This document shows, one piece after another, positions 22,467-50,225 of a stretch of DNA of 55,165 nt (the first letter of the stretch is position 1; every line of letters begins with the position of its first letter). The notes beneath the pieces are model-generated. The model was not told the origin of the DNA, ran no database searches, and worked only from the letters and a program-made list of their open reading frames with translations. The position numbers were made by a program, and so were the translations under genes. Origin of the DNA: Roseomonas sp. E05 (lineage in GTDB: Bacteria; Pseudomonadota; Alphaproteobacteria; Acetobacterales; Acetobacteraceae); contig NZ_JASIRT010000033.1 of assembly GCF_030063475.1 (NCBI RefSeq), positions 1 to 55,165 of the forward strand, given 5' to 3'.

Positions 22467-22549
22467 TGCGGTCGAGAAGATTCGAACTTCCACGGGGTTG
22501 CCCCCACCAGCACCTCAAGCTGACGCGTCTACCATTCCGCCACGACCGC
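22467..22549 (-). tRNA. tRNA-Leu (anticodon GAG)
   Basis: On the minus strand GCGGTCG at the 5' end pairs with CGACCGC near the 3' end, with discriminator A. The anticodon arm has stem CAGC/GCTG around loop TTGAGGT, giving anticodon GAG (22514-22516). The T-arm contains GTTCGAATC and there is a long variable arm, as expected for tRNA-Leu. The CCA end is not encoded. Length is 83 nt. Confidence 0.95.
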
Positions 22550-40366: not shown

Positions 40367-42529
40367 CTACTCGGCGGCGGCCGGCGCCGCCGCCAGCCGC
40401 GTCAGCAGGCCCGCCACCAGCGGCATGCCGATCCGCGCCGGATCCGTCATCAACGATTCCGGATGGAACTGCACGGCGGAGAGCGGCAGGCTCCGGTGCT
40501 CGATGGCCATGATCACGCCGTCCTCGGTCTCGGCGGTGGCGATCAGCTCCTTGGGCAGCGCCACGCGCCGTGCATGCAGCGAGTGGTAGCGGCCGACCGG
40601 GAACTGCTCAGGCAGCCCCTCCAGCAGGCGCCCGCCGAGATTACGCACCACCGAGGGCTTGCCGTGCATCGGCAGCGGAAGGATGTCCAGCGCGCCGCCG
40701 AAATGCTCGACCATCCCCTGCAGCCCAAGGCAGACGCCGAAGGCCGGCAGGCCACGCTTCACCACCAGGTCCAGCGTCTCGGACATGGCGAAGTCGGCAG
40801 GGCGGCCGGGGCCGGGGGAGAGCAGCACCAGGTCAATCGCCGTGCCGCGCTTCAGCTCCTCGCGCGCCAGGTCCGGCCGCAGGGTGCGGACGGTGGCACC
40901 GGCGGCACGGAAGTAGCTGGCCAGCGTGTGGACGAAGCTGTCCTCGTGGTCCACCAGCAGCACCTGCATGCCGGAGACCGCCGGGCGCGGCGCGGCGGAG
41001 GCGCCGGCGGCGGCCGGCACCTCGCCACGGATGGCAGCGAACATGGCGCTGGCCTTCAGGCGGCACTCGGCCTCCTCGGCGGCGGGCTCGCTGTCATGCA
41101 GCAGGGTGGCCCCGGCCCGCACCTCGGCCACGCCTTCCTTCAGGCGGATGGTGCGCAGCGTCAGGCCGGTGTTCATGTTGCCGTCGAAGGTCATGCGCCC
41201 GATGGCGCCGCCATACCAGCGGCGGGCCGAGCGCTCCTCGGCCTCGACATGGCGGATCGCCCAGGTCTTGGGCGCGCCCGTCACCGTCACCGCCCAGGCA
41301 TGGGAGAGGAAGCCGTCCAGCGCATCCATCTCCGGCAGCAGCGTTCCCTCGACATGGTCCACGGTGTGGATCAGGCGGGAATACATCTCGATCTGCCGCC
41401 GCCCGATGACCTTGACGGTGCCGGGGACGCAGACCCGCGCCTTGTCGTTGCGGTCCACATCCGTGCACATGGTCAGCTCGCTCTCCTCCTTGGTGGAGTT
41501 GAGCAGGGTGCGGATGTTGGCGGCGTCCTCCAGCGCGTCCCGGCCGCGCTTGATGGTGCCGCTGATCGGGCAGGTCTCGATGCGCCTGTCCTCGACCCGG
41601 ACGAACATCTCCGGCGAGGCGGCGATCAGGAACTCGCCCTCGCCGAGATTCATCAGCGCGCCATAGGGGGAGGGGTTCACGCGGCGCAGGCGGTCGAAGA
41701 TCTCGCTCGGCGCGTCGGCGCAGGTGGTGGCGAAGGTCTGGCCGAGCACCACCTCGAACAGGTCGCCGCGCTCGAAGGCCTTCTTGGCGCGCTCGACCAT
41801 GGCGGCGTACTCGCCGGGGCCGTAGTCGCTCTCGGCGGGGGTGGTGTTGCCGCCGGCGCGGAACGGATCGGCCGGCGTCTCGCGCGGCAGGCCGGCGGTG
41901 GAGCGGCCCTCGAAGGTGAAGTCGTAGCGGTGCAGCATGGCCGCGCCGCGCATGTGGTCCCGTACCAGGATCTCGTCCGGCAGGTAGAGGACGAGGTCGC
42001 GCTGGTCCTCGGCGCGCGGCAGGCGCAGCGGCATCGGCTCGAACTGGAAGACCAGGTCGTAGCCGAAGGCACCGTAGAGGCCGAGATGCGGGTCCTCCGG
42101 GCTGCCGAACAGGTCGCGCAGCACGCGGAGCAGGGAGAAGACGGAAGGCTGCCGGGAACGCTCCTCCTCGGCGAAGCGGCCCTCGGGCGCCTTCACGCTG
42201 GCGGCGATGCGGTCCGTGCCGACCTCCAGCGAGGCCAGCTCGGGCATGGCGCGCAGGGCGGGGGCGATGGCGGCGAGCAGCAGCGTGCCACGCTCGTTCA
42301 GGGCGCGCAGCGTGACGTCGCGGCCGCGGGCGGCGAGCATCAGCGGCGGGTCGGAGAAGCCCAGATCCCAGCGGGTGTAGCGGCCCGGGAACTCGAAGGA
42401 GGAGGAGAGCAGCACGCCGCGCTGCCGGTCCAGCCGGCGGGCAAGGGCGGCGATGCTCTGGCTGCCATCCGCCTCGAGCACCTCACGCTGGATCGTCAGG
42501 CCGCCTTCGGTTCGGTAGGTCGTCTGCAT
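40367..42529 (-). CDS. trpE(G): Fused anthranilate synthase TrpE-TrpG
   Basis: The 720-residue protein makes anthranilate from chorismate and glutamine, the first step of tryptophan synthesis. The chorismate-binding TrpE part covers about residues 1-505, with CPISGTIKRG, the CTDVDRNDKARVC segment and TVTGAPK. A short Ala/Pro linker leads to the glutamine amidotransferase TrpG part, with the oxyanion loop SPGPGRP, catalytic Cys600 in FGVCLGLQGM and the His689/Glu691 pair in QFHPES. The fusion is typical of Rhizobium/Azospirillum-type alphaproteobacteria. Expression is controlled by the leader peptide and attenuator at 42583-42687. Confidence 0.97.
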   Translation of the reverse strand: MQTTYRTEGGLTIQREVLEADGSQSIAALARRLDRQRGVLLSSSFEFPGRYTRWDLGFSDPPLMLAARGRDVTLRALNERGTLLLAAIAPALRAMPELASLEVGTDRIAASVKAPEGRFAEEERSRQPSVFSLLRVLRDLFGSPEDPHLGLYGAFGYDLVFQFEPMPLRLPRAEDQRDLVLYLPDEILVRDHMRGAAMLHRYDFTFEGRSTAGLPRETPADPFRAGGNTTPAESDYGPGEYAAMVERAKKAFERGDLFEVVLGQTFATTCADAPSEIFDRLRRVNPSPYGALMNLGEGEFLIAASPEMFVRVEDRRIETCPISGTIKRGRDALEDAANIRTLLNSTKEESELTMCTDVDRNDKARVCVPGTVKVIGRRQIEMYSRLIHTVDHVEGTLLPEMDALDGFLSHAWAVTVTGAPKTWAIRHVEAEERSARRWYGGAIGRMTFDGNMNTGLTLRTIRLKEGVAEVRAGATLLHDSEPAAEEAECRLKASAMFAAIRGEVPAAAGASAAPRPAVSGMQVLLVDHEDSFVHTLASYFRAAGATVRTLRPDLAREELKRGTAIDLVLLSPGPGRPADFAMSETLDLVVKRGLPAFGVCLGLQGMVEHFGGALDILPLPMHGKPSVVRNLGGRLLEGLPEQFPVGRYHSLHARRVALPKELIATAETEDGVIMAIEHRSLPLSAVQFHPESLMTDPARIGMPLVAGLLTRLAAAPAAAE

Positions 42530-42582
42530 CGGGAACTCCGGGCTGGGCTGCCACGGGGTCCGGAACGATCGGCTGCAGGATC

Positions 42583-42653
42583 AAAAAAAGCCGCCCGGAA
42601 CTCCGTGGCGGCCGTGGGAACAGGAAAACGCGGGCCGCCTTAGGAGAGCGGCC
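42583..42653 (-). promoter_or_regulatory. trp attenuator (alternative hairpins ending in a T-run)
   Basis: On the minus strand four segments can pair alternatively: 1 GGCCGC (42648-42653), 2 GGCGGCC (42633-42639), 3 GGCCGCC (42607-42613), 4 GGCGGC (42590-42595). 1:2 is the pause hairpin, 2:3 the antiterminator, and 3:4, followed by seven T (42583-42589), the terminator. Segment 1 overlaps the end of the leader peptide. A ribosome stalled at its Trp codons would free segment 2 to pair with 3 and let transcription reach trpE(G). Confidence 0.88.
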
Positions 42654-42687
42654 ACCACCAAGCTTGAGGGGGAATGCGCGTGATCAT
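42640..42687 (-). CDS. trpL: trp leader peptide
   Basis: A 15-codon frame encodes MITRIPPQAWWWPLS, with three consecutive Trp codons directly before the attenuator hairpins and ending in TAA. This arrangement matches the rhizobial trpL leaders that control trpE(G). Its role is to sense charged tRNA-Trp: slow translation of the WWW run shifts the RNA to the antiterminator form. AAGAAG just upstream is a modest ribosome binding site. Confidence 0.9.
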   Translation of the reverse strand: MITRIPPQAWWWPLS

Positions 42688-42689
42688 GG

Positions 42690-43048
42690 CGCTTCTTATT
42701 CCATGCGAGGGTCAGGAAAGCAAGCGAGGATTCGCAGGGGAAGGCCGACGAATTCCTCGTGGCTGCCGCACGGCCTGGCGCGATTCCTGCCCTGCCCAGG
42801 GTGTTTTCCTTGACGCCAGAGTGTTTTCCTTGACGAGGGACAGGCCGGACCGTAGATACCGCTCCCTGATCCGCCGAATCTTTGGTGATGCCGCCGCCCT
42901 ATGGGAGGCATTGCCAGTAAGATGGCGGATGAATCCTTGGTCGGCGCCTCACGGGAGGCCCGGCTCCGTCGCTCCGCGAAGGCTCGCGCAGCGGCGCGTT
43001 TTGTTTTGGGCGGGTGTCGGCCCGCATGAAAGGACGGCGGCGGCCACG
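42690..43048. other. Intergenic region between divergent trpL and ffh
   Basis: No gene was found in this 359-base stretch. It must hold the trpL promoter on the minus strand, where TTGCTT and TGGAAT elements lie at a weak match within 40 bases of the leader start. It also carries the ffh promoter with the duplicated GTGTTTTCCTTGACG segment (42801-42835) and a leader of about 190 bases before ffh. The frame open from 42674 into ffh shows no extra domain. Confidence 0.55.
42830..42858 (+). promoter_or_regulatory. Sigma-70 type promoter for the ffh operon
   Basis: TTGACG (42830-42835) and TAGATA (42853-42858) are spaced by exactly 17 bases. The -35 lies in the second of two tandem copies of GTGTTTTCCTTGACG (42801-42815 and 42821-42835, 20-bp period). 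Only the second copy has a matching -10 at the right distance. Confidence 0.6.
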
Positions 43049-50148: not shown

Positions 50149-50225
50149 GCGCTCGTAGCTCAATTGGATAGAGCACTAGACTACGGATCTGGGGGTTAGG
50201 GGTTCGAATCCTCTCGAGCGCGCCA
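50149..50225 (+). tRNA. tRNA-Arg (anticodon ACG), attachment site of the downstream element
   Basis: The 77-nt tRNA has acceptor GCGCTCG/CGAGCGC, discriminator G and an encoded CCA. The anticodon arm is CTAGA/TCTGG around CTACGGA, giving ACG at 50183-50185, which reads CGN codons after A34 deamination. The T-arm holds GGTTCGAATCC. A tyrosine integrase gene pointing toward it lies 500 bases downstream, so its 3' end is the probable att core. No second copy of this 3' end was found in the window. Confidence 0.95.

Follow-up and report, generated by a model that had tools for sequence, protein, structure and literature searches.

A trp-type attenuator in front of a fused trpE(G) gene in the Roseomonas group, with a conserved segment by the trpE ribosome site that can pair with the terminator arm

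Results

A fused trpE(G) gene and its leader

The DNA analysed here (55,165 nt, called the window) is a contig from a genome of the Roseomonas group, and the nearest named trpE(G) loci, from Pseudoroseomonas, Plastoroseomonas and Roseomonas, are 77–81% identical. Its minus strand carries a 720-residue open reading frame (40367–42529) that was assigned from protein family profiles as a fused trpE(G), anthranilate synthase; it scores far over the cut-off of the models for the fused enzyme (TIGR01815, 1079 bits; NF010081, 1109 bits). Elsewhere in the window genome, trpD (TIGR01245) lies in locus L111 (about 1473–2493, G000:C2), with an apparent trpC and moaC on its 3′ side and, on its 5′ side, a gap followed by an apparent peptidyl-prolyl isomerase gene. 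Judging these neighbours by eye, the trpD cluster seems to lack trpE and trpG.

Upstream of trpE(G) and on the same strand, trpL (42687–42640) reads ATG...TGG TGG TGG CCG CTC TCC TAA, that is 15 codons with three tandem Trp codons, and encodes the leader peptide MITRIPPQAWWWPLS. Segment 1 (GGCCGC, 42648–42653; all leader features are on the minus strand) overlaps the third Trp codon and the Pro codon after it, and segment 2 (GGCGGCC, 42633–42639) follows immediately 3′ of the trpL stop codon. Segment 3 (GGCCGCC and ACGG, 42603–42613) can pair with segments 2 and 4, and its 3′ half also with a segment 5 described below. Segment 4 (CCGGGCGGC; CCG-GGCGGC at 42598–42590) and the seven-T run that follows it (TTTTTTT, 42589–42583) occupy 42583–42598 and form an intrinsic terminator with segment 3. 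The helices in the window measure 6 bp (1:2), 7 bp (2:3) and 6 + 3 bp around one bulge (3:4). The initial annotation had placed a leader and attenuator at 42687–42583, with a 15-residue peptide, three tandem Trp codons and a seven-T tail; on reading the sequence these boundaries are exact and all of these elements are present.

Searched over the whole window at the gathering score, Rfam (release 15) returns two tRNA genes (50149–50222, plus strand; 22467–22549, minus strand) and no leader family, and no trp leader is among the 7 matches found up to an E value of 10. The leader peptide has no match in NCBIfam, and a simple terminator scan of the window gave none on the minus strand. For terminator detection in the survey below a relaxed T rule was used instead of a strict one, which missed many Acetobacteraceae.

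Promoter spacing points to a leaderless trpL

A −35 element (CTTGCT, 42719–42724), the TTG of which begins 36 nt 5′ of the trpL ATG, and a −10 element (AATAAG, 42695–42700), with TA at −11 (42698), predict a transcription start at or adjoining the trpL ATG. Such spacing recurs among the relatives: 74 of 76 leaders have a TTG that begins 33–38 nt 5′ of an in-frame trpL ATG (200 letter shuffles: mean 8.5, maximum 17), and in 68 it lies at −37 to −34 when the farthest ATG alone is considered. TA at −14 to −11 occurs 62 times over the 76 leaders. A Shine-Dalgarno-like motif is found upstream of trpL in 8 of 76 cases, versus 64 of 78 upstream of trpE. From this spacing trpL looks leaderless, with transcription probably starting at the ATG as in Sinorhizobium meliloti, where the transcript begins at the trpL ATG (PMC7298713). 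The anatomy first given for the locus was correct in its four segments but missed both this likely leaderless start and segment 5.

Further 5′ of the trpL promoter lies a direct repeat, CAAGGAAAACAC (42801–42832, minus strand; copies start at 42832 and 42812), no counterpart of which was noticed on visual inspection of 200 nt upstream in the near relative L002. Four terminator-like sites on the plus strand (42785–42817 and 42985–42998) are located between trpL and the divergent gene beyond it, which is ffh-like by eye.

Distribution of the fused gene and of the leader

At E ≤ 1e-180, 20 of the 397 Acetobacteraceae genomes sampled, from 6 of 102 genera, contain fused trpE(G); a search of a sample of 385 alphaproteobacteria with the Ensifer protein found it in 39. 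Within the genus of the window, 12 of 17 genomes carry it, the window's own included. Four genomes of this genus (G003, G006, G008 and G016) list the fused gene together with split trpE and trpG, and others list the split genes only; compared at loci L003, L007, L008 and L015 and in genomes G001, G002, G007 and G013, the mixture looks like gene displacement. Among the matches listed, the window genome has the fused gene and a 28% relative on contig C14.

A leader with tandem Trp codons precedes the gene in 18 of the 20 sampled Acetobacteraceae genomes that have the fusion. The two exceptions are L010, where the contig ends too early, and L014, where the leader is degenerate. The latter seems eroded: it reads W-R-W-R in place of WWW and stands before a trpE(G) that is 58% identical.

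Leader and terminator were both found at 78 of the 131 loci entered into a wider survey (named duplicates and loci with < 150 nt upstream were skipped). Two of the 78 are MAGs labelled Binatia and Polyangiaceae; at L015 the leader picked is a wrong upstream WW and the terminator is right. No leader was obtained at many loci (for example L054, L056, L060, L129, L132, L148 and L149), and none of 14 distant trpE loci has one within the stretch searched. These distant loci are 35–40% identical; the match covers just the TrpE part in 13 of them and both parts in L017. At the loci checked, the attenuator accompanies the fused form of trpE/trpG.

The core helices are conserved, 1:2 only in part

The main alignment holds 23 of the 25 leaders prepared and was made without structure; L122 (a near copy of L036) and L046 (which has a long spacer) were left out, and Labrys is the only rhizobial member. 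In helix 2:3, 99.4% of cells are paired and one pair shows a compensatory change from G-C to A-U (2 leaders); in 3:4 the figure is 95.2%, with zero compensatory changes. Pairing in helix 1:2 reaches 80.4% of cells: 19 of the 23 leaders lack one of its pairs and 8 lack another, and the complete 6-bp helix is not general among the leaders. The scheme of four segments pairing as 1:2, 2:3 or 3:4, as initially drawn, is thus sound for 2:3 and 3:4 and conserved only in part for 1:2. In some relatives the T run after the terminator is poor (alignment of 20 leaders).

Covariation scores over the 23 leaders are 0.047 (2:3), 0.045 (3:4), 0.029 (1:2) and 0.080 (4:6). Slid versions of all four helices sometimes outscore the true register; 1:2, 2:3 and 3:4 rest on the percentage paired and on known biology. 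Helix 4:6, which joins segment 4 to the trpE Shine-Dalgarno region and has 12 bp in the predicted fold of the window, was considered as a further switch and rejected (covariation not above shuffles, 172/500).

The initial annotation had suggested a check by covariation and folding. Helices 2:3 and 3:4 are conserved, 2:3 with its one compensation; the folding energy of the leader is nothing unusual (z −0.48, a stability matched by 63 of 200 shuffles). The attenuator stands beyond chance because of conservation, with the tandem Trp codons kept in 18 of 20 genomes and 2:3 and 3:4 paired as given above; folding energy alone does not show that. Trp codons, 2:3, 3:4, terminator and fused gene are all conserved, in agreement with the original proposal of ribosome-mediated attenuation as in rhizobial trpE(G). 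We regard a core trp-type ribosome-mediated attenuator before trpE(G) as close to certain, and infer that it depends on Trp in vivo.

Segment 5 is complementary to segment 3

A conserved block stands shortly 5′ of the trpE ATG in the alignment of 20 leaders, and its complementarity to segment 3 was first noticed by eye. In the window, this segment 5 (CCGTGGC, 42550–42556) pairs with GCCACGG (42609–42603) of segment 3. Segment 5a (TCCGGA, 42559–42564), a feature proposed from folding only, would pair with the TCCGG that opens segment 4 or with the trpE Shine-Dalgarno; the former pairing lies inside the 3:5 hairpin in the predicted fold. The Shine-Dalgarno region itself, segment 6 (GCCCGGAG, 42536–42543), was taken from the alignment.

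In the 23-leader alignment, 91.8% of 3:5 cells are paired against 86.4% in shuffles, and the covariation score is 0.204 against 0.103 (0/500 shuffles reach either value); as 18 of the 23 rows are shared with the 20 leaders in which segment 5 was noticed, this is not a blind test. Six slid versions score at most 0.085. The score of 3:5 is the highest of the five helices counted, a measure that taken alone can exceed shuffles through the relatedness of the rows. Two of the five measures for 3:5 fail to exceed shuffles, namely pairs changed on both sides (2, reached by 158/500) and further pair types (5, reached by 459/500). By eye, segment 5 is misaligned in L012, L042, L123 and L126, so that the 3:5 counts and the enforced-state results (see below) of these four rows are unsafe.

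Pair 61:125 is U-A in 9 leaders, A-U in 5, U-G in 4 and C-G in 2, and is unpaired in 3. Its left base forms the bulge of the terminator and takes no part in 2:3. On the TrpE tree, left A occurs with right U in both of the two independent comparisons, a number too small for a sign test, and pair 59:138 switches once from C-G to U-A; independent compensations in 3:5 are few (2 flips plus 1). Of the 23 leaders, 7 break pair 62:124 and 3 break pair 63:123.

Duplexes between the segment 3 (arm and loop) of each leader and its own downstream stretch were compared over 68 dereplicated leaders. No permutation of partners did as well as the own partners (0/2000; 3/2000 in the 18 Acetobacteraceae-like leaders and 0/2000 in the 50 others). 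Four rows were dropped before the shuffle and reversal controls. In L104, L126 and L133 the terminator seems by eye to have been picked wrongly; the fourth, L065, is a Polyangiaceae MAG with a sound-looking terminator and the weakest 3:5 in the set (rank 68 of 68). For 17 Acetobacteraceae-like leaders the mean duplex energy is −22.3 kcal/mol versus −16.0 for shuffled downstream stretches, with an advantage over swapped partners of −2.2 versus +0.1 for shuffles (0/200 each). The corresponding values for the 47 others are −16.2 versus −14.4 kcal/mol, and −2.0 versus −0.35 (0/150 each); all these control figures overstate the certainty somewhat, because related rows are not independent.

Taken leader by leader, 3:5 reaches p < 0.05 in 8/14 Acetobacteraceae, 4/4 nearby loci and 11/46 others, and a reversed segment 3 does so in 0/14, 0/4 and 4/46. 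Single leaders thus often fall short of significance, with p ≥ 0.05 in 6 of the 14 Acetobacteraceae and 35 of the 46 others (examples are L003 with 0.20 and L125 with 0.64). The clearest cases outside the Acetobacteraceae are L079, L080, L101, L138, L140 and L142. As a yardstick, the same kind of shuffle finds the accepted 2:3 helix at p < 0.05 in 25 of 69 leaders and 3:5 in 19 of 69, as well as 3:5 in 4 of 11 further leaders. We conclude that 3:5 is probably a selected pairing; that the locus combines the core attenuator with a selected 3:5 is likely to practically the same degree.

Predicted access to the trpE ribosome site

With each helix enforced in turn, the median cost of opening the trpE ribosome site is 8.3 kcal/mol for 3:5, 10.7 for 2:3 and 12.9 for 3:4; opening is cheaper in the 3:5 state than in the 3:4 state in 22 of 23 leaders, and than in the 2:3 state in 20 of 23. 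The site is cheaper to open in the 3:5 state partly because segment 5 has been taken away from the Shine-Dalgarno. When 3:4 is enforced, the segment 5 block accounts for ≥ 0.58 of the Shine-Dalgarno pairing in 20 of 23 leaders, and opening costs more than the shuffled-block mean in 19 of 23 (mean z 1.1; p < 0.05 in 7/23). The predicted fold of the stalled 2:3 state of the window masks the Shine-Dalgarno too, by segment 4, which would be the opposite of what induction requires, except if 2:3 lasts only briefly. Folding suggests a translational role of 3:5, in which 3:5 might open and 3:4 might mask the trpE ribosome site, an idea that we put forward only tentatively and against which the computed stability of 3:4, at least that of 3:5 in 19 of 23 leaders, also speaks.

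Discussion

A possible fifth segment in the trp switch

The trp attenuator is a textbook RNA switch that is usually drawn with four segments. At the present locus, RNA polymerase would start at or adjoining the trpL ATG, so that ribosomes would initiate directly on a trpL without a 5′ leader. When charged tRNA-Trp suffices, the ribosome would reach the stop codon and cover segment 2, and the 3:4 terminator would form. With too little, it would stall on UGG UGG UGG, 2:3 would form and the polymerase would read through. Segment 5 is made only after the terminator and therefore does not act on the termination decision itself. Available only in read-through RNA, it may take over segment 3 and, through 5a, the start of segment 4; the 3:5 pairing would then prevent the terminator hairpin from re-forming and leave the trpE Shine-Dalgarno more open. 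In a transcript that has leaked through with 3:4 still holding segment 3, the segment 5 block would instead fold onto the Shine-Dalgarno. We speculate, with some doubt, that alphaproteobacterial trpE(G) attenuators are five-segment switches of this sort, in which 3:5 locks the translatable form and the leaked terminator fold masks the ribosome site. If this is true, a single event sensed by the ribosome would be enforced at both transcription and translation.

The simplest alternative is a plain four-segment attenuator in which segment 5 is a conserved stretch around the trpE ribosome site and its complementarity to segment 3 is without function. The region of segments 5 and 6 adjoins the Shine-Dalgarno and may be conserved for other reasons, the computed stability of 3:4 is at least equal to that of 3:5 in 19 of 23 leaders, and 35 of the 46 leaders beyond the Acetobacteraceae and nearby sets lack a 3:5 at p < 0.05. 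The two covariation measures that do not rise above shuffles fit the same reading. However, covariation is seen at 61:125, where the left base is free in both 2:3 and 3:4, and the sliding control also speaks for the pairing itself, as do the comparisons with shuffled and swapped partners in both sets of leaders. We consider the functionless match unlikely.

Alternatively, the leader RNA could act in trans like rnTrpL, with segment 5 or other mRNAs as its target, and the peptide may do so as well. Trans action of rnTrpL and peTrpL is reported for S. meliloti, and of the peptide for Agrobacterium tumefaciens and Bradyrhizobium japonicum, which have unlike peptides (PMC7298713); segment 5 is moreover complementary to the terminator arm and loop that a released RNA would carry. 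However, the same segment 3 is present in cis on the read-through RNA and should win. A duplex of trpL RNA with the trpD mRNA of the window genome is no better than with random stretches, 160 of 299 of which are at least as strong by a crude method that ignores folding. Action in trans as the explanation of segment 5 appears improbable.

A non-regulatory origin, in which the WWW codons and the GC-rich hairpins arose by chance between genes in high-GC DNA, would agree with the unremarkable folding energy but is ruled out for practical purposes by the conservation of leader, terminator, 2:3 and their position across Acetobacteraceae and other alphaproteobacteria.

Comparison with known systems

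The kind of switch is already known: the locus has an ordinary trp-type ribosome-mediated attenuator. In the E. coli trp leader (Rfam Trp_leader), tandem Trp codons are combined with 2:3 and 3:4 alternatives and an intrinsic terminator. The locus studied here differs in that it has no match to an Rfam leader family, an apparently leaderless trpL, a single fused gene and the fifth segment. The Azospirillum trpE(G) attenuator belongs to a fused gene with a leader of the same class. The Skermanella loci L046 and L049 carry the leaders MSNIVLTAAQRWWWPV and MNTLIVTAAQRWWWPV, and 3:5 is weak in them, unlike in the window (p 0.048 and 0.913 respectively). Among the matches listed from the open-licence literature, titles and abstract openings mention neither a fifth segment nor a Roseomonas trp attenuator. 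A covarying fifth segment by the ribosome site of the structural gene would, if true, add a translational layer to a transcriptional switch.

A close parallel is S. meliloti trpLE(G) with its rnTrpL and peTrpL (PMC7298713), which likewise has a fused trpE(G), a short leader peptide with WWW and a mutually exclusive antiterminator and terminator. Its transcript starts at the trpL ATG, a start that at our locus is predicted from promoter spacing, and its peptide differs from MITRIPPQAWWWPLS apart from the WWW run, as the initial annotation had noted for rhizobial peptides in general (PMC7298713). Trans action is reported there for S. meliloti; at the window locus, where the initial annotation had suggested that it may occur, the sequence speaks neither for it nor against it. 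The fifth segment of the window is marginal in the Ensifer locus L110 (own partner ranked 16 of 68 among segment 3s and 32 of 68 among downstream stretches). With the survey, the trp leader is now seen in the Roseomonas group as well, in which fused and split forms of trpE/trpG coexist.
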